From the NCBI RefSeq assembly GCF_013267195.1, contig NZ_CP053941.1, positions 2,170,001 to 2,234,000 of the forward strand: a DNA stretch of 64,000 bases, written 5' to 3'. The notes below the pieces were generated by a model that was given only the letters and a program-made list of their open reading frames with translations, was not told the origin of the DNA and ran no database searches. The translations under genes were made by a program, and so were the position numbers. Within the stretch, counting starts at the first letter, position 1. The number at the start of each line of letters is the position of its first letter. This document shows positions 877 through 50,853 of the stretch, piece by piece. This DNA is from Halorubrum salinarum (lineage in GTDB: Archaea > Halobacteriota > Halobacteria > Halobacteriales > Haloferacaceae).

Positions 877-3057
877 TCAGAACGACTCGGCGACGGCGGC
901 GACGACGGCGTCCTCGACCGCGTCGCGCTCGCCGGAGAGGAACTCGATTTTGCCCTCGCGGACGCCGGCGGTCGCGATGTCGGCGTTCGGCGCGAGCTCG
1001 GCCGCGCGCTCGGCCACGTCGCGGACGGAGATGTCCGCGGTCGTGCGCACGTACAGCTCGTCGGTGCCGACGCCGACCGTCGCGAACGGCTCGCCGTCGG
1101 CGCGGCGCCGGTGGAGGTCGTCGAGCAGCAGCGGCGTCGGCGGGAAGTCGTAGCGGTGCGTGTAGCCGTCGGTGTCGAGCAGCGCGAACTCGACGCCGTC
1201 GACCGCCTCGGTCACGACGTTCGCGTCCGCGGTCTGGACCTCCGTCTCCAGCTTCTCGCGGAACTGCTCGGAGACGTGCGCCGCGAGGTTGCCGCCGTCC
1301 GAGAACAGGAGGTCGGCGATGAGCTCCCGCTTGTCCTGGTACGACTGGTAGTACGCCTCCAGCGCGACGGCCTCGCGGAGCTCCGCGACGCGCTCGGCGT
1401 CGTAGCCCGCGTCGCGGGCGAGGTCGACGTAGCGGTCGGGGGCGTCCGCCCAGTAGCTCACGGCGGGCAGGTGCCGCAGGTCCTCGCGGACCTCGCCGTT
1501 GATCGCCGACGCCAGCGAGGTGACGAGCGCGCCCGTCGAGAGCGTCTCGTCGCCGCCCACGTCGGACAGCTCCGGCGAGACGAGCGTGTCGACCGCGTCC
1601 CGGGTCTCGGGGTCGGCGACAGCGGCGTCGACGACGACCGCGTCGACCCCGTACACCGACAGCAGGTCGATGCCGTCGGCGGATTCGGTCGTCGAGCCCG
1701 CGCCGACGAGCAGGAACAGGGGGAGCTTCTCGTCGTGGCGGTCGCGGTCCTGGAGCATCCGCGTCGCGTCGTTGGTAGCCGCGTCCATCCCGTACACCGG
1801 CTCGTCGAGCGGGCGGCGGGTGAAGTAGTGGTACTCGGCGTCGCTCTTCGCGTGCTCGTCGCGGATCAGCGGGAGCACGGCGCGCTCGACCGCGGCGCCC
1901 GCGACGTAGCCGTCGGCGGTCGCCGGGTGGCGGACGACGATCGGCCGCGATTCGAGGACCGCCCGGCGGACCGCCTCGGCCGCGTCGAGGAGGCCGTCGG
2001 CGAGTTCGGCGACCGTCTCGTCGCCGGCCAGCGGCTGGAGGCCCTCCGGCCGCGCCTCGTCCGTGAGCGCCTCGGCCAGGCGGCGGCGGACCGCCTCGGC
2101 CGCCTCGCCGTCGAGGAGGGCGAGCGCCTCTGACTCGACCTGGATGTCGCCGCGGTGGCTCTCGACTTCCCCGTCGACCCGCACCGCGTCGCCGACCTCG
2201 ACGTCCGGGTGCGCCCGGACGCCCGGCTCGACGAACGCCGCCACGTCGACGGCGCCCGTCTCGTCGCTGACCTCGAACACCGTCGGGCCGCCGGTCTGAC
2301 GGACGCCGACGACCTCGCCCTCGATCCGGACCACGTCGCCGACGGCGTCCCCGAGCGTCGCGATCGACGCGCGCTCCGGTTCCGCGTCGTCCTCGTCGGT
2401 CTCGGCCTCCGGCGTCTCCTCGTCGTCCGCGGTCGCGACGTCGTCGGTCTCGGGCTCAGCGGCCTCCGTCTCGTTCGCGGATTCCGTGTCACCCTCCGCC
2501 TCGTCGTCGGGTTCGGCGGTCTCGGCGGATTCAGGCGCCTCGTCTTCCGGCGCCGCCGTTTCGGTGCCGGCGTCGGCCTCGGTGGACTCCTCGGCCGCCT
2601 CGTCGTCGCTCTCGTCGGTCGGCTCCGCGCTCTCGTCGGACTCATCGGTCGTCGGCTCGTCGTCGTCCGGGTCCTCGTCGGGGAGGTGTTCCCCGGAGGA
2701 CTCCTGGACGAGGACGCCGCGGAACTCGCGGTCGGCCTGCCGGATCGACCACGCGAGGTCGACGTTGCCGTTGTCGCGGACGCCCTTCACCTGGACGAAC
2801 ACGTCGTCGCCCGGCTCCCAGCTGAGGCTGTCGAGCCGGCGGTCGAGCTCGGAGCGGTGGAGCAGCCCGGTGACGCCCGGCGCGAGGTCGACGAACACGC
2901 CGAACTCGGCGTACCCGTCGACGACCCCCCGGTAGAACCGGCTCGGAACCAGGTCTTCGGGGGAGTCGCCGCGGAAATCGAACACGACGTCCTCCTGGTG
3001 CGAGTCGCAGACGCGACCGCCCCCGACGTCGGTGCCACAGATGATACAGGATCCCAT
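877..3057 (-). CDS. RecJ/DHH-like nucleic-acid-binding protein (zinc finger, S1, acidic linker, OB fold, degenerate DHH domain)
   Basis: A 726-residue protein with this order: an N-terminal zinc-finger-like segment (CIICG, then CDSH, residues 4-20); an S1-type RNA/DNA-binding domain (about 38-110, with GVVDGYAEFGVFVDL); a very acidic low-complexity linker (about 120-230); an OB-fold (about 230-320); and a C-terminal RecJ/DHH-like domain. Haloarchaea carry several RecJ paralogues, which belong to the family that includes the Cdc45/GINS-associated nuclease. Here the motif I region reads HPATADGY rather than an HxDADG type, and the position expected for the DHH triad reads VVVDAAVAD. The nuclease site therefore looks altered or lost. 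A structural or binding role in replication or repair is my inference. The start is ATG, just before the zinc finger. Confidence 0.75.
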   Translation of the reverse strand: MGSCIICGTDVGGGRVCDSHQEDVVFDFRGDSPEDLVPSRFYRGVVDGYAEFGVFVDLAPGVTGLLHRSELDRRLDSLSWEPGDDVFVQVKGVRDNGNVDLAWSIRQADREFRGVLVQESSGEHLPDEDPDDDEPTTDESDESAEPTDESDDEAAEESTEADAGTETAAPEDEAPESAETAEPDDEAEGDTESANETEAAEPETDDVATADDEETPEAETDEDDAEPERASIATLGDAVGDVVRIEGEVVGVRQTGGPTVFEVSDETGAVDVAAFVEPGVRAHPDVEVGDAVRVDGEVESHRGDIQVESEALALLDGEAAEAVRRRLAEALTDEARPEGLQPLAGDETVAELADGLLDAAEAVRRAVLESRPIVVRHPATADGYVAGAAVERAVLPLIRDEHAKSDAEYHYFTRRPLDEPVYGMDAATNDATRMLQDRDRHDEKLPLFLLVGAGSTTESADGIDLLSVYGVDAVVVDAAVADPETRDAVDTLVSPELSDVGGDETLSTGALVTSLASAINGEVREDLRHLPAVSYWADAPDRYVDLARDAGYDAERVAELREAVALEAYYQSYQDKRELIADLLFSDGGNLAAHVSEQFREKLETEVQTADANVVTEAVDGVEFALLDTDGYTHRYDFPPTPLLLDDLHRRRADGEPFATVGVGTDELYVRTTADISVRDVAERAAELAPNADIATAGVREGKIEFLSGERDAVEDAVVAAVAESF

Positions 3058-3131
3058 TTGAGTACACCGAGAGTCTCGGGCCTAAAACGGTTGTCGAAAG
3101 CCCGCTGGCGGCGGCGCGAGCGCCCGGCGCG

Positions 3132-3743
3132 TCACGCGCCGAGCAGCGTTCGCGCGGCGGCCACGGCGCGGTAGCCGACCCCGTAGCCGAGCGCGGCCGG
3201 CGGCACCGCGGCGACGGCCGTCCGGAGCGGTCCCAGCCCGTGGACTTCACGGAACCCGACGAACAGAAGCACCGCCGCGTACGCGCCGCAGGCGACCCTG
3301 AGCTCCGGGATCACTGGGCCGGCCAGCGCCATCGGCGAGCTCGCGTACGCCACGGCCTGAACCGTCTCGCTCACGCCCCCGCGGTCCCGCAGGGCGAAAT
3401 GTCCGTCGGCGATCTCGACGCTCGCGACGACGACGGCGACGGTCGCCGCCGCCGCGGTCAGGTGGAGGCCGACCGGCGCCGCCAGCGCGACCACGACGAG
3501 GAAGACCACGGCCTGCGAGAGCAGGGGGGAGGAGGGGACGACGGCGGGCATCGCGGCGGGGTCCGACGCGATCCACCCGAGCGTGAACGCCGCGGCGACC
3601 GCCACCGCGAACGTCAGCGCGGGCGCCTGGTCGCCGGGCGTGATCCCGTTCGCGAACGCCCGCCGCGGCCGGACGAGCACCTCGGCCCACGTCCGCGCTA
3701 TCCCCCGCGGGCCGCGGGGCCGACCGCCCGACGAACCGCTCAT
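3132..3743 (-). CDS. Yip1-like multi-pass membrane protein
   Basis: A 203-residue membrane protein. The N-terminal segment (ARTWAEVLVRPRRAFANGI) and about five hydrophobic segments after it match the general look of the archaeal Yip1 domain family, where a 'W..vl..P..fF' motif precedes the membrane part. Function is unknown for archaeal members. I take the ATG at 3741-3743. A GTG four codons upstream (3755) is an alternative start. It is divergent from the pilin-like gene at 3906 and shares with it a 160-base intergenic region that holds a perfect palindrome. Confidence 0.6.
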   Translation of the reverse strand: MSGSSGGRPRGPRGIARTWAEVLVRPRRAFANGITPGDQAPALTFAVAVAAAFTLGWIASDPAAMPAVVPSSPLLSQAVVFLVVVALAAPVGLHLTAAAATVAVVVASVEIADGHFALRDRGGVSETVQAVAYASSPMALAGPVIPELRVACGAYAAVLLFVGFREVHGLGPLRTAVAAVPPAALGYGVGYRAVAAARTLLGA

Positions 3744-3845
3744 CCGAGAGGTCACGCGGGTAGTTCGACCGCGCGGAATAACCCGTTTCCGGTTCGGTCC
3801 CGTCCGCGGAGTCGGCCCGCGCGTTCGGGAGGCCGCCGCCGAACT

Positions 3846-3859
3846 TATCAGCGCTGATA
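3846..3859. promoter_or_regulatory. Perfect 14-bp palindrome between Yip1 and pilin-like genes
   Basis: TATCAGCGCTGATA is a perfect dyad. It ends 15 bases upstream of the TATA element that precedes the pilin-like gene. This position suits an activator or BRE-overlapping regulator. No known binding protein can be named from sequence. Confidence 0.4.
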
Positions 3860-3874
3860 CGCGGCGCGCAAACC

Positions 3875-3881
3875 CTTATAT
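3875..3881 (+). promoter_or_regulatory. TATA box of the pilin-like gene (leaderless arrangement)
   Basis: CTTATAT is centred about 28 bases before the ATG at 3906. At that distance transcription should begin at or next to the start codon. This predicts a leaderless mRNA, as is common in haloarchaea. Confidence 0.55.
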
Positions 3882-3905
3882 CGGCCCTCTCTGACTGTCG
3901 CTCGA

Positions 3906-4370
3906 ATGGCCGCGTTCAGCACCGACGAGCGAGGGTTCACCCCGTTGGCGGGGACGGGTCTGCTGGTCGGGGTCGTCGTGCTGCTGCTCGCGCTCGTCGG
4001 CGCGGCGGTGTTCGGACTCATCGACGGCGTCGCCCCGCCGGACGCCGAGTTCGAGGGGCAACAGCAGAACGGCTCCCTCGTCGTCGTCGCGCTCGGTCCC
4101 GAGCCGGTCCCGGCCGAGGAGCTGTACGTCCGCGGCGAGGACCCGGACGGCAACGTCCAGTTCGGCGCGTGGCCCGGCGACGGGATCGTCAGACCGGGCG
4201 ATCAGGTCGTCGTGCCCAACGCGACCGGCAACGAGAACTTCGAGGTCGTCTGGGAGCCCGTGGCGTTCGACACCCGCGAGACGCTCGGCAGCTACAACGG
4301 CGAGGACTCCGCGATACAGGAGTGGAGCGAGGAGAACGGGGGCGCCGCGGGCGGGGCCGTGGGCGTCTGA
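3906..4370 (+). CDS. Type IV pilin-like secreted protein
   Basis: A 154-residue protein that starts MAAFSTDERGFTPLAGTG and continues into one long hydrophobic helix (LLVGVVVLLLALVGAAVFG). This layout of a short charged leader, a processing site and a hydrophobic H-domain is that of haloarchaeal type IV pilins (DUF1628-type), which are cut by the prepilin peptidase PibD. The rest is an acidic beta-rich ectodomain ending in a glycine/alanine-rich tail. It stands alone, without other pilus genes, so it may be an adhesion pilin or another cell-surface protein that uses the same export route. Confidence 0.7.
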   Translation: MAAFSTDERGFTPLAGTGLLVGVVVLLLALVGAAVFGLIDGVAPPDAEFEGQQQNGSLVVVALGPEPVPAEELYVRGEDPDGNVQFGAWPGDGIVRPGDQVVVPNATGNENFEVVWEPVAFDTRETLGSYNGEDSAIQEWSEENGGAAGGAVGV

Positions 4371-4415
4371 GACCGATCGTCGCTCGACTTCGGGGCGGCG
4401 CCCGTCCCCGACCGC

Positions 4416-5549
4416 TCACTCGACCGCGACCCGTTCGCCGCGCTCGTCGGCGCGCTGGATCGCCGCGAGGACTTTCTGGACCTCGTAGCCGTCCTCGAAC
4501 GACGGCTCGAACGACCGCCCCTCGGCGACCGCCGAGAGGAACTCGTAGCTCTCGTGGACGAACGTGTGCTCCCACCCGATCACGTGTCCGGGGGGCCACC
4601 AGCGGTCGACGTACGGGTCCGACTCCTCGGTGACCAACACCGTCTCGTAGCCGCGGTTCCCCTCGCGGAGGACCTCCAGTTCGTTGAGTCGCTCCAAGGA
4701 GAACTTCAGGCTCCCCTCCGTCCCGTGGACCGCGACCGTGTGGTCGTTCTTGTGGCCCGCGGCGACGCGGCTCGCCTCGAAGGTCCCGGTCGCGCCGGAC
4801 TCGTAAGCGACCTGCGCGCCGTACGCGTCGTCGACGGTCACGTCGCGGTACTCCGCGACGTTGCCGTCGTCGTCGTAGACCGGGCGCTCGTCGGTGAACG
4901 TCGTCAGGCGCCCCGACACGCGCTCGATCTCGCCGACGCGGTCGCCGACGAGGAAGTTCGCGAGGTCGATGGTGTGCGCGCCGAGGTCGCCGAGCGCGCC
5001 CGACCCCGCCATCTCGGCGTCCATCCGCCACGCCCACGGCGCCTCGGGGTCGACGAGCCAGTCCTGGAGGTACCGCCCGCGGACCTGTCGGATCTCGCCG
5101 AGTTCGCCGTCCTCGATCAGCCGCTTCGCGTGCCGGATCGCGGGGACGAACCGGTAGTTGAACGCGGTCCCCGCGGTGACGCCCGTCGCCGCGGCGGCGT
5201 CGCGCATCGCCGCCGCCTCCTCGACCGTCGGCGCGAGCGGCTTTTCACAGAGGACGGGGACCCCGGCCTCGAGGGCCGCGATCGACGGCTCGGCGTGGAC
5301 GTGGTTCGGCCCGAGGTTGTAGAAGGCGTCCACCTCGTCGATCACCGCCTCCCAGTCGGTCGCGGTGTTCGCGAAGCCGAACCGCTCCGCCGCCTCGGCC
5401 AGCGCTTCCTCGTCGCGCCCGACGAGCGTGTGCCGCTCGACCTCGGGCGCGTCCGGGAAGAACATCGGGAGCCGCGCCAGCGCGTTCGCGTGCGCCTTGC
5501 CCATGAATCGATACCCCAGTACGCCGATCCGCAGTGGTTCGTCGGTCAT
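4416..5549 (-). CDS. Gfo/Idh/MocA family oxidoreductase
   Basis: A 377-residue NAD(P)-dependent sugar or inositol dehydrogenase-like protein. The N-terminal Rossmann motif is RIGVLGYRFMGKAHANAL, the conserved CEKPLAPT motif lies near residue 105, and the C-terminal alpha/beta domain contains DLGAHTIDLANF with its conserved Asp and His. I start at the ATG at 5547-5549 (MTDEPLRIG); the frame stays open much farther upstream only because it shadows the next gene. It lies 23 bases downstream of a TIM-barrel isomerase gene on the same strand. The two probably form one operon for oxidation and isomerisation of a sugar or polyol; the substrate is unknown. Confidence 0.9.
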   Translation of the reverse strand: MTDEPLRIGVLGYRFMGKAHANALARLPMFFPDAPEVERHTLVGRDEEALAEAAERFGFANTATDWEAVIDEVDAFYNLGPNHVHAEPSIAALEAGVPVLCEKPLAPTVEEAAAMRDAAAATGVTAGTAFNYRFVPAIRHAKRLIEDGELGEIRQVRGRYLQDWLVDPEAPWAWRMDAEMAGSGALGDLGAHTIDLANFLVGDRVGEIERVSGRLTTFTDERPVYDDDGNVAEYRDVTVDDAYGAQVAYESGATGTFEASRVAAGHKNDHTVAVHGTEGSLKFSLERLNELEVLREGNRGYETVLVTEESDPYVDRWWPPGHVIGWEHTFVHESYEFLSAVAEGRSFEPSFEDGYEVQKVLAAIQRADERGERVAVE

Positions 5550-5572
5550 TGTTGGATTCCTCGGTCGCCGCC

Positions 5573-6544
5573 TCACTCCGCCCAGTAGGCGTCGCCCGGC
5601 TCCGTCTCGAAGACGGCGCGGTCGAGCACGTCGACCGCCTTCTCTAACCCCTCGCGCGCCGAGGTGAGCGAGTCCTCGTGTTCGATCGACAGCGCGCCCT
5701 CGTAGCCGACCATCCGCAGCGTCGAGACCACGTCCTTCCAGTGCTCCTCGCCGTGCCCGTAGCCGATCGAGCGGAACAGCCACGAGCGGTCGGCCTCCTC
5801 GGCGTAGCCCGTCGTGTCGAGGACCCCCTTCACGCGCGAGTTGGCCTCGTACACCCGCGTGTCCTTCGCGTGGACGTGGTGGATCGCGTCGCGCTCGCCC
5901 AGGAACCGGATCGCCTCGGTCACGTCGATCCCCTGCCAGTAGAGGTGTGAGGGGTCGAAGTTGGCGCCGATCCGCTCGTTCGTCGCCTCGCGCAGCGCGG
6001 CCATCCCGGTCGGCTCGTAGACGAGCATGTTCGGGTGCATCTCGATCGCCACGTCGACGCCGTGATGCGCGGCGTGTTTCGCCAGGTCGCGCCAGTACGG
6101 GACCGCCACCTCGTCCCACTGGTAGTCGAGCGCGTCGGCGTGCTCCGTCGGCCACGGCGCGGTCACCCAGTTCGGCGTCGAGTCGCCGGGCGCGCCCGCG
6201 GGGAGCCCGGAGAAGCAGGTCACCGTCTCGACGCCGAGCAGGTCGGCCAGCTCGATCGCCTCGCGCAGCTCGCGGTCGGCCGCCGCGGCCCGCTCCTCGT
6301 CCGGGTGGAGCGGGTTGTTGTGGGTCGCCAGCGCGGAGATGCGAAGTCCGTGCCCGTCGAGCAGGCGGACCAGCTCGTCGCGCGCCTCCCCGTCGCCGAG
6401 GAGCCGCTCGCGGTCGACGTGGTCCTCGCCGGGCCAGCCGCCGACGCCGAGTTCGACGGCGTCGACGCCGAGGCCGTCGAGGTACGCGGCCGCGTCGTCG
6501 ATCGGTTCGCCGCCGAGGGGGACGGTCAGCACGCCGATGTCCAT
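5573..6544 (-). CDS. Sugar phosphate isomerase/epimerase-type TIM-barrel protein
   Basis: A 323-residue member of the xylose isomerase-like (AP endonuclease 2) TIM-barrel family. It has ALATHNNPLHPD near the first strands, VAIEMHPNMLVYEP and GANFDPSHLYWQG in the middle, and IHHVHAKDTRV and ALSIEHEDS near the C terminus. The Glu, Asp, His and Glu residues in these segments are the usual divalent-metal ligands, so the active site looks intact. It is upstream of, and probably co-transcribed with, the Gfo/Idh/MocA gene, a pairing typical of inositol or unusual-sugar degradation. The substrate cannot be read from sequence. Confidence 0.88.
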   Translation of the reverse strand: MDIGVLTVPLGGEPIDDAAAYLDGLGVDAVELGVGGWPGEDHVDRERLLGDGEARDELVRLLDGHGLRISALATHNNPLHPDEERAAAADRELREAIELADLLGVETVTCFSGLPAGAPGDSTPNWVTAPWPTEHADALDYQWDEVAVPYWRDLAKHAAHHGVDVAIEMHPNMLVYEPTGMAALREATNERIGANFDPSHLYWQGIDVTEAIRFLGERDAIHHVHAKDTRVYEANSRVKGVLDTTGYAEEADRSWLFRSIGYGHGEEHWKDVVSTLRMVGYEGALSIEHEDSLTSAREGLEKAVDVLDRAVFETEPGDAYWAE

Positions 6545-45383: not shown

Positions 45384-45592
45384 TACGGAATTTTACACGA
45401 GGCGTCCGAAACCGGCTAGACTGGCCGCTATTACGGTCATTTGGTGTGACAGTGACCCGCCCGGTTCACCCGTCAGTTACGTCCGTCGAGGACGCGGGAG
45501 ACGACGTTCGGAGTCGGGTCAGACACGCGAGCAGTCAGACGACCGAGCGCGTCTACGACCACCTCGGTCGAGTGGTCCTTCGGGGGCTATCG

Positions 45593-46231
45593 TCAGCTGT
45601 TGGCGGTCACGTCGGTCAGGTACCACGCAATAAGCCGCGCCTGTGCCCGGCGGACGATGCCCGACGCGGTCGACTTGTCCACGCCGACCACGTCGGCGAG
45701 GTCCGCCAGGGTACACTCTCTCGGGACCTCGAAGTATCCCTCTCTGAGGCCGGCGGCGAGGAGCTCCTCCTGTCGTCGTGTGAGGAGTCGGTCCGACCGC
45801 TTCTTGTCCACCTTCGAGAGGAGTTCGTACTCGGTACCGCTCGATTCCAGCGCGTTCCGGAGCTGGTCGAACTCCTCGCGAGTACCGGTTATGTCGAACT
45901 CATAGAACCCGTTCCGAACTTCGATCGGAAACTCAGGCGGGAACCCTCCGGACTCGACGAAGGCGTAGAGGTCGACGTCGGTCGTCTCGTACGTCGCGAG
46001 GAGCCGGTCGTCGGTGCGTTCCAACACCTCGTACGCGTCGACCGCCCCGTGTTCGCGAAACGCCGCTGCGATCGACCCGGGAGTCCGAGTCAGCACCTCT
46101 CCGAGTTCCGTCGCGGTGGCGCCGCTGCGGACGCCGGACAGTAGACGAAAGGTCGCGTCGGGGAACGCCTCCGACAGGTCGGCGATGTACAGGTCCGGCG
46201 GGAGGCGAATGCGGAATCGGGCGTCGATCAT
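45593..46231 (-). CDS. HTH-10 (bacterio-opsin activator Bat-type) transcription regulator
   Basis: A 212-residue regulator. The C-terminal HTH-10 domain (LTRRQEELLAAGLREGYFEV, CTLADLADVVGVDKSTASGI) is the DNA-binding domain of the Bat family in haloarchaea. The N-terminal 140 residues form the usual ligand/sensor-like domain (RFRIRLPPDLYIADLSEAFP). No GAF or PAS domain is present. I start at the ATG at 46229-46231. It is divergent from a membrane protein gene (77-base gap), which it may control. Confidence 0.85.
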   Translation of the reverse strand: MIDARFRIRLPPDLYIADLSEAFPDATFRLLSGVRSGATATELGEVLTRTPGSIAAAFREHGAVDAYEVLERTDDRLLATYETTDVDLYAFVESGGFPPEFPIEVRNGFYEFDITGTREEFDQLRNALESSGTEYELLSKVDKKRSDRLLTRRQEELLAAGLREGYFEVPRECTLADLADVVGVDKSTASGIVRRAQARLIAWYLTDVTANS

Positions 46232-46307
46232 GCTGGGTACTGCCGCTTCGGACAGATACCAACACGTTGGGGTCATTCACACATGAATCGCCCGGCAACA
46301 CTGTAGT

Positions 46308-47138
46308 ATGAACTCCGAGTCGGCCGCTACGGCCACGAGCGGACGGGCGACGCTGCGGACGATCACCGGACCGATCGGAGAGCTGTGGTGCCGCGATCCG
46401 GTTTTGTCCGCCGTGGCCGCGATCAACGCCGTCCTGTTCGGTGCCTTCGCCGTCGGCACCGTCTTGGACCCGACGGTCGTCAACGGGGAGCCGGCGTGGC
46501 TCAAGCCGACGAAGTTCGCCGGTTCGATCGCGCTCGTGTGCGCGACGCTCGGCTGGCTCGGCGTCCATCTCCCGGTCGACCCGGACTTTCGCCGCCGCGT
46601 CTCCCGGATCGTCGGCGTCGGTCTCCTCATCGAAATCGTCCTTATCGGCGGACAGGCCGCGCGCGGCGTCGGTTCCCACTTCAATCGAGCAACGATCCTC
46701 GACGGGGCGATCGGGGGCATCATGGGCGTTACAATCGTCATCGTCACCGTCGCGATCGCCGCGCTGGCGGTCCGCGCGCGCGGCAACGAGTTCGATGTCC
46801 ATCCGGCGTTCGCCGCGGGCATCCTCCTCGGGATCGGGTGGTTCGTCGTCGGCGCGTTCGAGGGGGCGGCGATGATCGCGATCCAGTCCCGGGTCGTCGA
46901 GACGACGGAGCCGACGGTCCCGGTCGTCGGCTGGCAGCTCGTCGGCGACTTCCGTCTGGCACACTTCGTCGGCCTCCACGCCCTCCAGCTGTTGCCGCTG
47001 GCCGGCTACCTCGCGGCAGTTGGACACCGTCGAGGACTCGTCGACTATCCGCGACGCGTGGTCTACCTCGTCACTACCGGGTACGTCGCGGTCCTTCTCG
47101 TGACCGCCGCCCTCGGCGTCGCCCCGGCCCTCATGTGA
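46308..47138 (+). CDS. Multi-pass membrane protein of unknown function
   Basis: A 276-residue protein with about seven hydrophobic helices. Conserved-looking loops include EPAWLKPTKFAGSIAL, GQAARGVGSHFNRATILDG and DFRLAHFVGLHALQLLPLAG. The His, Arg and Asn residues in the membrane-proximal loops could bind a cofactor or metal, but no family name can be given. It is divergent from the HTH-10 regulator, and such regulator/membrane pairs are often light- or stress-linked in haloarchaea. That link is inference. Confidence 0.6.
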   Translation: MNSESAATATSGRATLRTITGPIGELWCRDPVLSAVAAINAVLFGAFAVGTVLDPTVVNGEPAWLKPTKFAGSIALVCATLGWLGVHLPVDPDFRRRVSRIVGVGLLIEIVLIGGQAARGVGSHFNRATILDGAIGGIMGVTIVIVTVAIAALAVRARGNEFDVHPAFAAGILLGIGWFVVGAFEGAAMIAIQSRVVETTEPTVPVVGWQLVGDFRLAHFVGLHALQLLPLAGYLAAVGHRRGLVDYPRRVVYLVTTGYVAVLLVTAALGVAPALM

Positions 47139-47309
47139 CGAGTGATCTCACGAATCCGGGGCGATAACGCTTACAGCAACAGATATTGATACCTGATTAG
47201 CAGCCAAATCACCACGTGCCGAGAGGAACTGCGGCACATGGCGATTTCACGCCAATCGGGACTGAACGTCTCTCCGGCGAGATTTCGCGCCCGCGTGTGC
47301 GCCAGCCCC

Positions 47310-47330
47310 CCATCTCCCCGCGGGAGATGG
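47310..47330. terminator. Strong hairpin in the convergent region before polB2
   Basis: CCATCTCCC (47310-47318) and GGGAGATGG (47322-47330) form a perfect 9-base stem with a CGC loop. It lies in the 273-base gap between two converging genes. No long T-run follows, so a terminator role is only possible. A weaker 6-base stem (GTGCCG 47216-47221, CGGCAC 47232-47237) lies upstream. Otherwise the gap shows no gene I can support. Confidence 0.4.
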
Positions 47331-47411
47331 AGTCGAAATCCCTGCCGACCGAGGCGACACAAGATCAGTTCTGATTAGGGTCAGAGAGACCGGAGAATCA
47401 GATGCCCGTTC

Positions 47412-49598
47412 TCAAAAGCTCGCCAGCGTTTCGTCTCTCGTCTCACTGAGATACTGCCGAATCGCTCCCTCGTCCCAACCGACCACCGACAGCACGCTTT
47501 CGACGGCGCGCACAGCGGCATCTTCGTACCACGCGGCGTCGTACCGTGGTACCTCTTCGAACACCAACCTGACCCGCGACGCGCCTCGTGCGTCCGCATC
47601 AACGACCACGTATCGAACGGCCTGTCCCGGGGATAGTCCCGCACCCTCGATTGACGCCCGCTTCAGCGCTGCGACGGTGAGCGTCTCCATCGAGTAGTCG
47701 TCGACGTCTTTCGACACGCGATTGTCGACGACGAGCGCGTTCGGGTCGACCGTCCCCTCTCGTAGCTCGTCGAGGTGCCGCCGGAGTACGTCGCACACCG
47801 CCTCTGGAGAGCGCGTCTCGTCGAACACACGAAGCGCCTCGCTCTGTACTTCTTCGACCCACGTCGGCGTTGAGCGCTGTCGCCCCTCGATGCCCCGCGT
47901 TTTGACCGCGTCGCCGAGCCCCGCCTCGGGGTAGTCCTCACCGCAGCGCTTGCCGAAGTACCGAGTGAGCGCTCCCGACTCGGAGTTTCGCATCGGACAG
48001 AACGCGACCCACTCGAACTCGCATTCGTACTCTAGCTCGATACCGGCTTCCGCGCTGATCTCGGCGGCGACTTCCTCCAAGGGACGCTGCTCGCGATCGT
48101 CGGCCGGAGTCACCCAGATGGAGTCGACGATGCCGTGTACCACGCGCCAGCCGGCCGCTTCAAGTGCGGTCTTCGCGTCGAGGAGGAGCTCGCGAGCGTA
48201 GGCGTTGATCGCTTCGTGACACTCGATGCGGCCGAACTTGGCGTTCGAGAAGCCCTGATACCCGAAGCAGGACACGAGGATCCACTTGATCGCTGACGAG
48301 GCGGCTTCGAGGCGCTCGCGTTCGTCACCGGCGGCGTCGGGGATCTGTGCTTTGATCTCGCTCCGGGCGTCGATCAGCGGGCCGAGGACCTCCGGCAGGT
48401 AGCCGTCTCGATCACAGACGGAGTAGCCGAGTCCTGGCACTTCCTCGGTGTCACAACACCCGCAGCGGACGGTCTCGGGCGAGATGTTGCGGGTTCGGAT
48501 GATGTTGGGGTACAGGGATGCGAAGTCGAGTTCGTGAACGTCCTCGTGGACGCCGACGTCGGGGGCGAACGTCGTGCCGCCTCGGTCGGCGTCGTCGAGC
48601 GTCGACGCCCGCTTGAACAGTTCCGGGCGCCACGCGCGCCACGGCACGAGCACGTCTCGGTCTCTCGCTTCTCGGATCTGCATCGCCGTCAGCACTCGCC
48701 CGATGGACGCCCACCCGAGTTCCTGTAACGGGAGCCCGGAGCGCTCGACGAGGTCGAGACAGCCCTCCAGCCCGGACTCATGGTAGAAGAAAGAGTTGGA
48801 CTCGTCGATGATGACGCGTCCGGGGACCGCGTACCGGGCCGGCGAGTGCCCCACGTTGCCGTACGAGGTGTACGTCGACTCGCCGGCGAGCTTGATGTAG
48901 CCCTCCCGCCGACCGAGTTCGAGATCGATGCCGTAGGCGTCGGCCGCCTCGAACAGCAGCGGCACGAGGTCCGCGGTCGAGACGACCAGGACATCGGGAT
49001 CGCGTTCGTCGAGAATCGCTTGAACGCCGGCGACGGTCTCACCGGGCGACGTGCCGACTCGGTCACCGTCGACGGTGAGCTGCGGCAGCGACTCGATGCC
49101 CGATTCGTGACTCGGCAAGTCGAGGTGGAGCGTCCGCAGGTCGCGCACCGAGCGGTCCGGAGCGGCGGGCGTGTCTGTTTCGAGGCAGAAGCGGAGCTGG
49201 CGAGTGAAATCAACGTTGTAGCAGGTGTAGGCGTCGGGCTGGCCGAACTCCTGAACGCGACTCGCGATCCTTCGGACCGCCTCGATCGAGGCGGCGTCGA
49301 CGCGGAGCAGCGGCCGGGCGTCGGTCCGGAACGTCTGCCGGTGGGCCTCGACGCTGAGCCGCTCGACCGCGTCCTGTCCGTCGAGGAAGGACCAGAGGTC
49401 TTGGAGCGCGTCCGAGAGCCCGTCGCGGGGCGGCGGCGTCGGATCCGGGCCGCCCGATCGACCGTAGAGATCCCCCGCTGAGTCACCGACGAAGAGCGTC
49501 GGGTGGTGGTCTTCGTGAACCTCGCGAGCGGCGCCGTCCGGAGTGAGCGTCCATCGGGCGACGCGGCCGTCACCGAGGTACTCCAGCGTGAGCGTCAC
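47412..49598 (-). CDS. polB2: Divergent B-family DNA polymerase (PolB2-like)
   Basis: A 728-residue protein. Motif A is intact (ELDFASLYPN, Asp358). Motif B is altered (KWILVSCFGYQGFSNAKF; the usual NSxYG Asn is Ser). Motif C reads HGIVDSIW, so the first Asp of DTD is Ile while the second (Asp492) remains. A later KTRGIEGRQRSTP matches the KxRG region. The exonuclease domain seems dead: LHLDLPS lacks the DxE pair, and the Exo II region reads VVSTADLVPLL. It is shorter than the replicative PolB. It is last in a three-gene operon with a small protein and a RadA-like protein. A role in repair or translesion synthesis is inference. Confidence 0.85.
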   Translation of the reverse strand: MTLTLEYLGDGRVARWTLTPDGAAREVHEDHHPTLFVGDSAGDLYGRSGGPDPTPPPRDGLSDALQDLWSFLDGQDAVERLSVEAHRQTFRTDARPLLRVDAASIEAVRRIASRVQEFGQPDAYTCYNVDFTRQLRFCLETDTPAAPDRSVRDLRTLHLDLPSHESGIESLPQLTVDGDRVGTSPGETVAGVQAILDERDPDVLVVSTADLVPLLFEAADAYGIDLELGRREGYIKLAGESTYTSYGNVGHSPARYAVPGRVIIDESNSFFYHESGLEGCLDLVERSGLPLQELGWASIGRVLTAMQIREARDRDVLVPWRAWRPELFKRASTLDDADRGGTTFAPDVGVHEDVHELDFASLYPNIIRTRNISPETVRCGCCDTEEVPGLGYSVCDRDGYLPEVLGPLIDARSEIKAQIPDAAGDERERLEAASSAIKWILVSCFGYQGFSNAKFGRIECHEAINAYARELLLDAKTALEAAGWRVVHGIVDSIWVTPADDREQRPLEEVAAEISAEAGIELEYECEFEWVAFCPMRNSESGALTRYFGKRCGEDYPEAGLGDAVKTRGIEGRQRSTPTWVEEVQSEALRVFDETRSPEAVCDVLRRHLDELREGTVDPNALVVDNRVSKDVDDYSMETLTVAALKRASIEGAGLSPGQAVRYVVVDADARGASRVRLVFEEVPRYDAAWYEDAAVRAVESVLSVVGWDEGAIRQYLSETRDETLASF

Positions 49599-49601
49599 GG
49601 G

Positions 49602-49859
49602 CTACGCCTCGGTGAGCGCCTCGACCTGGTCTTCCAGTTCGGCGATTCGGCGCTCCTGTTCGAGGGCGATCGCCATCCACATCGGTGCCAGCGGGTCGGC
49701 GGGGTTGAGGTTCCCCGCGGCGTCGGCGTGGTCGCGAGCGTACACGAACAGCCGGTCGAATCGAGACTTGTCCTGCCGCCGGAGGACGCGTCGGAACGGG
49801 CGCCAGTCGTCTTCGATCGCGCTCAACTGGTCCCGGTAGGTCGGGTTCGTCCGGCCCAT
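49602..49859 (-). CDS. Small helical protein between RadA-like and PolB2-like genes
   Basis: An 85-residue protein starting MGRTNPTYRDQLSAIEDDWR, continuing RVLRRQDKSRFDRLFVYARD, with a C-terminal coiled coil (ALEQERRIAELEDQVEALTEA). It matches my recollection of a small haloarchaea-specific family found next to this type of polymerase, whose function is unknown. Its start overlaps the upstream stop (TAATG), and its stop lies 3 bases before the polymerase start. It is thus tightly coupled, perhaps as an adaptor. Confidence 0.7.
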   Translation of the reverse strand: MGRTNPTYRDQLSAIEDDWRPFRRVLRRQDKSRFDRLFVYARDHADAAGNLNPADPLAPMWMAIALEQERRIAELEDQVEALTEA

Positions 49860-50557
49860 TACCGGATGCTCGGCGCGGCCGCGGCGCGGTCGACGGTCGC
49901 TCCCTCGTACATCCGGGCGCGGTGTTCGAGGACCTCCTGCCAGTACGCGAGCGTCGTCTGGAGCCAGCCGTCGTCGGTATGGTAGACGAGCGTCTCCGTG
50001 TCGCCGGCGGCGTCCTCGAAGCGCGGGCCGAAGGGCGTCTTCCGGCAGGTGAGGTGCGTCCCCGCGGCGCGGCGGAGGGGCTTCGAGAACGCGTCGTCGC
50101 GGCACCGCGTCACGAGAACCGGCGTGTCGTGGACGCGAGCGACGCGGGCGACCGACGCGATCGCGCGGATGAACAGTTGCTCGGCGGTGTCGGCGTCGAC
50201 ATCGGCGGCGCGGTACATGCCGTCGAGGCCGGTCGCGACGACGACCGAGGGCGACTCGCGGGCGGCGAGCCGGCCGGCCAATCGGTCGAGCAGCGAGGTG
50301 TGCTGGTGAGCTGTGAACCCGCGAGCGACCTCGATGCGGTCGAGGACGCGGTCGGCCGGGGCGAGTTCGCGGAGGCGCGTCGTGTTGGCCCTGTTCGCGC
50401 CGTCGACCCAGAACGCGGGGCCGTCGGCGCCGAGGACGCGGTCGAGCAGGAGCGCCTGGACAGGGGTGACACCGAGTTCGTCGTCGACGTCGACGAGCGT
50501 GACGCCCGGCGCGAGCTCCGGGAGGTCGGCGGTCGGTCGTCGGGAACGAGTGGACAT
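49859..50557 (-). CDS. RadA/RecA-superfamily paralogue without a Walker A motif
   Basis: A 232-residue protein. The region that should carry the P-loop reads PAFWVDGANRANTTRL, with no GxxxxGKT. Later segments keep the RadA pattern: VARGFTAHQHTSLLDRL (as in the VARxFxxxHQ segment of RadA), VVVATGLDGMYR near the Walker B strand, and HDTPVLVTRC. It is thus a RecA-fold protein that probably does not hydrolyse ATP. It is first in the operon with the small protein and the PolB2-like polymerase. In bacteria, the degenerate RecA homologue ImuA has a comparable place with a translesion polymerase. The start is the ATG at 50557. Confidence 0.7.
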   Translation of the reverse strand: MSTRSRRPTADLPELAPGVTLVDVDDELGVTPVQALLLDRVLGADGPAFWVDGANRANTTRLRELAPADRVLDRIEVARGFTAHQHTSLLDRLAGRLAARESPSVVVATGLDGMYRAADVDADTAEQLFIRAIASVARVARVHDTPVLVTRCRDDAFSKPLRRAAGTHLTCRKTPFGPRFEDAAGDTETLVYHTDDGWLQTTLAYWQEVLEHRARMYEGATVDRAAAAPSIR

Positions 50558-50853
50558 GGTAGGGCCGACGTGGAATTGGGTAAAAGGGGTGAGCCATGGA
50601 CGGGCGGTGAAAGTGGAAGTGGTGACGAGGCCTGGGCCCGTCGAACGACGGGGACGCACACGAGACGGATCTCGGGGTTGTGCCGAGACAAAGTACCCGG
50701 CGGCGTTCCGGATCGCGGACCCGCGGAATGGGAGGCGGGCCTGCTCGAGTACTCCGCACCGATTACCGCTCACCCAGGAGTCAGTTTGCTCTGGAGGTCG
50801 GCGATCCCGCCCGCTCCGCAACCACTAAACGCGGCTCGCTCCTTGCTCCGGTA

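Follow-up and report, generated by a model that had tools for sequence, protein, structure and literature searches.

A PolB2 mutasome operon in an insertion beside rfcL of Halorubrum salinarum, with a promoter element in common with radA and RPA

The stretch of DNA analyzed here (the window: 64,000 nucleotides of Halorubrum salinarum, NCBI RefSeq assembly GCF_013267195.1, contig NZ_CP053941.1, positions 2,170,001 to 2,234,000 of the forward strand, with coordinates below counted from its first letter) carries a three-gene operon built around a divergent B-family DNA polymerase, which is the subject of this report. The genes iRadA, PPB2 and PolB2 lie consecutively on the minus strand and are transcribed in that order. 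iRadA (49859..50557) runs from an ATG at 50557 to a TAA ending at 49859 and encodes a RadA/Rad51-family protein of 232 amino acids that is devoid of Walker A and Walker B. PPB2 (49602..49859), of the arCOG07300 type, encodes a helical protein of 85 amino acids with a conserved N-terminal MGRT arm, and its TAG ends at 49602. PolB2 (47412..49598) starts with a GTG, stops at 47412 and encodes the polymerase, of 728 amino acids. The first junction is a one-base overlap, in which the final base of the iRadA stop codon is also the first of the PPB2 ATG (TAATG), while a three-base gap (CCC) separates the TAG of PPB2 from the GTG of PolB2; an earlier sequence-only reading of this DNA had given these coordinates and spacings correctly.

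The arrangement is conserved at the level of the trio. A PolB2 match occurs in 81 of the 146 genomes of an order-wide sample, several times in many of them. Of 109 distinct full-length haloarchaeal PolB2 genes for which 1.45 kb or more of the preceding sequence is available, 93 are preceded by both partners in the same orientation, so that adjacency is common in other haloarchaea, where the sequence-only reading had asked whether it might be rare. Only PPB2 is found at 9 of the 109 loci, only iRadA at 1 and neither at 6, and some of the loci with missing partners are short or carry inserted genes. In a group of loci mostly from Haladaptatus (L021, L023, L100, L101, L105, L147, L165), PolB2 is preceded by a PPB2 that is devoid of MGRT, and no intact iRadA adjoins it. 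Outside the archaea, the full iRadA-PPB2-PolB2 trio is carried by Leptospira phages (L219, Leptospira phage KF114878.1), with PolB at 3539-5818, the MGRT open reading frame (ORF) at about 3297-3558 and an iRadA-like gene at 2766-3332; of this MGRT-starting PPB2, the annotation shows merely a fragment of 43 amino acids. When the window copy is compared with up to seven Halorubrum copies, the ratio of nonsynonymous to synonymous substitution rates (dN/dS) is 0.10-0.19 for PolB2, 0.09-0.30 for PPB2 and 0.20-0.40 for iRadA, values which indicate that all three genes are under purifying selection.

PolB2 matches the NCBIfam family NF004418 over its whole length with 945.9 bits (cut-off 692), and its closest named match is from Halorubrum sodomense (94%). 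Its nearest solved structures are archaeal replicative B polymerases (KOD in the PDB, E=2e-41); likewise, its AlphaFold2 model, with a predicted local distance difference test score (pLDDT) of 85.9, is matched by Foldseek to KOD/9N over the full length (E~1e-41). The catalytic residues were mapped on an alignment of 118 distinct haloarchaeal PolB2 sequences. The Asp of motif A (DFASLYP, D358), the second Asp of motif C (here GIVDS, D492), the Lys of motif B (KxxxN) and, ahead of motif A, the D(K/R) dyad (D-R at 338-339), which is described as contacting PPB2, are all present in 118/118. The first Asp of motif C, on the other hand, is replaced by Ile in 117 sequences and by Leu in the one left, and the Asn of motif B by Val in 117/118; moreover, alignment to the intact PolB3 of the same genome shows that the acidic residues of Exo I, II and III are all lost. 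This is the pattern that the sequence-only reading had described for the window protein, namely a motif A Asp and a second motif C Asp retained, with the first motif C Asp, the motif B Asn and the exonuclease residues gone, and for motifs A to C it turns out to be nearly invariant across the 118 haloarchaeal sequences. Random decay of the active site is rejected, given the fixed nature of the substitutions and dN/dS values well under 1. In other words, the alignment identifies the active site of PolB2 as a fixed variant rather than a decayed one.

The last residues of the polymerase form a tail that resembles a PCNA box (DETLASF, 47412..47435 on the minus strand, stop codon included). In 108 of the 118 proteins the final 14 residues include a LxxF/Y/W pattern, typically in the form (D/E)xSLxxF, against 17.7 in shuffled tails (maximum 32) and 3 in an internal control stretch, although the sequences are related and not independent, so that the shuffle figures overstate the certainty. 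A degenerate PCNA-box-like tail thus looks near-universal on haloarchaeal PolB2, and it may contact the clamp. In the 2025 study of the system, PCNA motifs were reported for a small fraction of PolB2 proteins and more often for iRadA (PMC11791011).

The RadA-like nature of iRadA emerges from profiles rather than from Pfam, where its Rad51 match is weak (E=0.013, below the cut-off). A profile of 34 iRadA homologues finds RadA as its best match in the PDB (E=1.6e-12), and the AlphaFold2 model (pLDDT 80.9) is matched by Foldseek to DMC1/RadA (E~1e-12). The match to RadA begins only beyond the P-loop: the window protein has neither Walker A nor Walker B, including the Walker B Asp, and it lacks the N-terminal helical domain of RadA, while it retains VARGFTAxQH, the counterpart of VARAFNSNHQ in RadA. 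By profile and by fold, therefore, iRadA is predicted to be an ATPase-dead RadA homologue, and the loss of the P-loop reported from the letters alone holds. A strict PCNA box of the QxxLxxF type is found on 3 of 103 iRadA tails and is absent from that of the window protein; plasmid-clade iRadA proteins terminate in PLLDAW, possibly a variant of the box. For PPB2, neither Pfam nor NCBIfam gives a family match. It starts with MGRTNPTYRDQL, that is, with the MGRT that is described as the diagnostic N-terminal arm of PPB2 (PMC11791011) and that opens 123 of 137 haloarchaeal PPB2 homologues.

Upstream of iRadA lies a promoter element, TTCCACTTTCA (50608..50618, minus strand), which ends 50 bp before the ATG and matches TTTCACTTTCA at 10 of 11 positions. 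It is the one site with at most one mismatch in the window, where 0.03 would be expected. A TATA-like CTTTTAC (50580..50586, minus strand) follows about 24-29 bp before the ATG; its position is kept in close copies and fits a leaderless transcript. The Halorubrum copies keep the element, and when the upstream regions of eight Halorubrum iRadA copies are aligned, conservation stops just past CCACTTCCACTTTCAC. In Halobacterium NRC-1, TTTCACTTTCA was described about 50 bp before the start codons of a UV-B-induced group of genes, radA1/top6B/vng280/vng17 (PMC2556686); the spacing is the one seen here, whereas that group is devoid of PolB2 operons and the window element has a C at position 3. In the 3.34 Mb genome of H. 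salinarum, TTYCACTTTCAC occurs at five sites, each ahead of a correctly oriented ORF: 85 bp before RPA, 50 bp before radA, 50 bp before the PolB2 operon, 48 bp before an ORF of 58 amino acids and 46 bp before a TnpB-like transposase gene. Patterns of the TTYCACTTTCAC type precede radA in 9 and the 58-amino-acid ORF in 6 of the 12 congeneric genomes searched. The last two of the five sites belong to loci L195 (the 58-amino-acid ORF, which is conserved; G000:C1:2385673) and L196 (the transposase gene; G000:C2:148346), and a transposase gene with a near-match to the motif was reported as UV-B-induced in Halobacterium (PMC2556686).

Across the haloarchaea, a site with at most one mismatch lies 48-61 bp before 20 of 98 iRadA genes, where shuffles expect 0.12 and control ORFs give 0.6%. 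A second element, GGAA-N4/5-GGAA followed by a TATA-like box, is found upstream of iRadA at 52 of 99 loci (controls 3.6%); with slightly looser patterns the first element is found at 21 of the same 99, and no promoter carries both (0/99). The two promoter classes need only four changes on the phylogenetic tree. A strict pattern of the second class has one match elsewhere in this genome; at the loci that carry it (for example L011, L012 and L118) the second element sits about 20 bp before a CTTAT box. Lastly, the ACTTTC inside the TTCCACTTTCA-type element agrees with the Sulfolobus damage element ANTTTC, the binding site of the Dpo2 activator Orc1-2 (PMC9738581), a short likeness that is only suggestive; a relative of Orc1/Cdc6 would be the foremost candidate for the regulator acting on the TTCCACTTTCA element. 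Taken as a damage-type motif, the element would lend indirect support to a mutasome, and we infer that the operon is probably damage-inducible through an element common to radA and RPA.

The locus is thus a haloarchaeal PolB2 mutasome operon, and the central proposal of the sequence-only reading, an archaeal mutasome of a polymerase, a small adaptor and a dead RadA, is right and already published (PMC4104785, PMC7390963, PMC8764526, PMC11791011). The three genes were linked by Makarova in 2014 (PMC4104785). Sulfolobus Dpo2 was then reported by Feng in 2020 to be damage-induced and solely responsible for targeted mutagenesis (PMC7390963), and a 2022 mBio paper described PolB2 as an active extender without exonuclease that extends mismatches (PMC8764526). 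Finally, the PolB2-PPB2-iRadA 'mutasome' was modeled by Timinskas in 2025 as a heteropentamer of one PolB2, one iRadA and three PPB2 (PMC11791011). The Sulfolobus islandicus Dpo2 operon shares with the window the three families in the order iRadA-PPB2-PolB2, the MGRT arm, the missing first Asp of motif C, the D(K/R) dyad, the dead exonuclease and the dead RadA. It differs in that here the promoter bears a TTYCACTTTCA element, the operon sits in a recent insertion and no experiments on the activity of the haloarchaeal system were found; in addition, unlike the published PolB2 mutasome, the PCNA-box-like tail is on PolB2 and not on iRadA.

Among bacterial systems, the sequence-only reading had pointed to ImuA-ImuB-DnaE2. 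The part of this analogy that stands is the pairing of a RecA-like protein with a specialized polymerase in a cassette that is damage-inducible in bacteria and probably so here. However, DnaE2 is a C-family polymerase and ImuB a dead Y-family one, neither has a homologue among the three genes, whose sole polymerase is B-family, and no Y-family match was found among them in Pfam or NCBIfam. A better parallel, according to the 2025 authors, is Pol V (UmuC-UmuD'-RecA). The present system resembles it, and plasmid MucAB/RumAB, in combining a polymerase that does not proofread with a small arm protein that forms oligomers and a partner of RecA fold, in having relatives on plasmids and in its probable damage induction. 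Pol V differs in that UmuC is of the Y family, whereas the polymerase here is B-family, RecA is an active ATPase encoded outside the operon, and UmuD' is a cleaved LexA-like protein unrelated to PPB2. No family relationship was found between PolB2 and the polymerases of Pol V or ImuA-ImuB-DnaE2.

The explanation that we regard as clearly the most likely is that of a haloarchaeal PolB2 mutasome that is damage-inducible and performs error-prone bypass. DNA damage would activate the leaderless promoter through the TTYCACTTTCA element common to radA and RPA. PolB2, iRadA and a trimer of PPB2 would then assemble, with the MGRT arm placed by the published models between PolB2 and iRadA near the DNA; in the same models, iRadA would act as a RadA-shaped dock, with no ATP hydrolysis. 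PolB2, active and devoid of proofreading, would extend distorted or mismatched primer ends past lesions, as shown for Sulfolobus Dpo2, and its degenerate C-terminal PCNA box would probably recruit the complex to the clamp. The outcome would be survival at the cost of mutations, and the operon would move between plasmids and chromosomes. The mutagenesis role is thus proposed for the haloarchaeal operon by analogy with Sulfolobus. Several points weigh against this explanation, besides the relatedness of the tail sequences mentioned above. The PolB2 assays published in the cited papers include no haloarchaeal protein, and Halobacterium and Haloferax survive without polB2. The PCNA box of the window PolB2 is degenerate and the window iRadA has none. 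The promoter element is only 11-12 bases long, and ANTTTC by itself is not long enough to establish that regulation is shared. In addition, polB2 is not mentioned in the text of the UV-B array paper (PMC2556686), a silence qualified by the fact that the Halobacterium plasmid PolB2 copy is only about 50% identical to that of the window.

The surroundings of the operon indicate how it came to its present position. DNA similarity to relatives extends to 45396 on the side of the peptidase gene and starts again at 50811, ahead of rfcL, leaving a segment of about 5.4 kb (45397..50810) between the peptidase gene and rfcL that is absent from the relatives by synteny and blastn over 15 congeneric rfcL loci and in which genes for an HTH_10 regulator and a membrane protein accompany the PolB2 operon. 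Genes and promoter of the latter form a block (47347..50621, minus strand) that is conserved as a unit in blastn, with 81-92% DNA identity to plasmid, secondary-contig and other copies, and that ends just past the promoter element. The HTH_10 regulator and the membrane protein occupy 45593-47138, of which 45607-47052 is 91% identical to a plasmid carrying another PolB2 operon. No clear transposon ends are found in the insertion, where the only repeats are short and weak. Judging from synteny and from these boundaries, the operon was inserted next to rfcL recently. Moreover, none of the 15 congeneric rfcL loci (15/15) has an adjoining PolB2 operon, with gene order on the far side mostly kept, and rfcL was not found next to PolB2 in any of the other PolB2 loci fetched. 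The divergence from the clamp loader gene, which lies about 300 bp away and which the sequence-only reading had counted as support, is therefore real in the window and not conserved, and the adjacency gives no functional clue because the operon arrived as part of an insertion.

This mobility raises the possibility that the operon works on behalf of plasmids or other mobile DNA, for instance in their own replication or repair, with the chromosomal copy as a mere passenger. There are 99 plasmid records with PolB2. The tree contains a clade of highly similar copies that spans several haloarchaeal families; of the three PolB2 operons of this genome, two are on secondary contigs (C2 and C3), whose PolB2 proteins share 85% identity, against about 50% with the window copy, and the chromosomal one is itself an insertion. 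However, all three genes of the chromosomal clade are under purifying selection, this clade keeps the element common to host radA and RPA, the Sulfolobus polymerase is reported to work in host damage tolerance (PMC7390963), and plasmid carriage is equally consistent with a mutagenesis cassette such as mucAB; we thus consider a mere passenger unlikely. As to further copies in the genome, the PolB2 search also matched C1:1138713 and C1:2274952, and a split PolB3 gene was considered and rejected: PolB3 proved complete and has a PCNA box of its own, and the match at C1:2274952 is a short chromosomal remnant of a PolB2 C-terminus (G000:C1:2274952-2275098; L169:2884-3273), apparently a dead fourth copy. 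Plasmid-clade operons also carry, between PPB2 and PolB2, a gene for a stand-alone RNase_H_2 (PF13482) protein with DIETTG (L035:11512-12231 on G000:C2, also L044, L047, L050, L130 and L146), and L121 has a further relative some 2 kb upstream of its operon. Possibly, this protein replaces the 3'-5' exonuclease lost by PolB2.

A second alternative, put forward in 2014 (PMC4104785), is that PolB2 is catalytically dead, its complex serving a structural or regulatory function such as the clearing of stalled forks or, with Orc1/Cdc6, alternative replication initiation. It accords with the loss of the first motif C Asp, the motif B Asn and the exonuclease residues, and with the fact that 48 of 96 haloarchaeal PolB2 genes have an Orc1/Cdc6 gene no more than 6 kb away. 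No orc gene adjoins the window operon, however, the motif A Asp, the second motif C Asp and the motif B Lys are invariant, and Dpo2, which has the same kind of substitution, was described as a robust polymerase (PMC8764526), so that a dead PolB2 appears decidedly improbable. The other two PolB2 operons of this genome are flanked by SRAP and Orc1/Cdc6 genes (L036:8029-8796, L036:14774-16009; L035:5597-7105). A functional tie to the divergent rfcL, finally, has the proximity of the two in the window in its favor and, as a conserved association, is already refuted by the congeneric synteny and by the blastn boundaries (operon homology ends at 50621, rfcL-side homology starts at 50811), which leaves it hardly any chance of being correct.

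With respect to the main text of the cited papers, what is new here comprises the two classes of promoter and the element in common with radA and RPA, the tail that looks near-universal on haloarchaeal PolB2 proteins, the placement of the operon in an insertion next to rfcL, and the plasmid operons that include a putative exonuclease gene. As a tentative generalization, to which we give somewhat less than even chances, haloarchaeal PolB2 mutasomes could be damage-inducible mutagenesis cassettes that move on plasmids, an archaeal counterpart of mucAB/rumAB, and that join the host damage regulon of radA and RPA by way of either of two promoter elements that can stand in for each other. In some plasmid versions, a separate gene between PPB2 and PolB2, for a 3'-5' exonuclease of RNase H fold, would restore in trans the editing that the polymerase lost. 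Active-site substitutions that are nearly invariant speak against calling haloarchaeal PolB2 by its old label of 'inactivated polymerase'. Little of the haloarchaeal damage response has been mapped and, as far as the cited papers report, damage induction of PolB2 has been published only for Sulfolobales. The element common to radA, RPA and the PolB2 operon would offer a direct and cheap test of a haloarchaeal damage regulon that would include error-prone synthesis.

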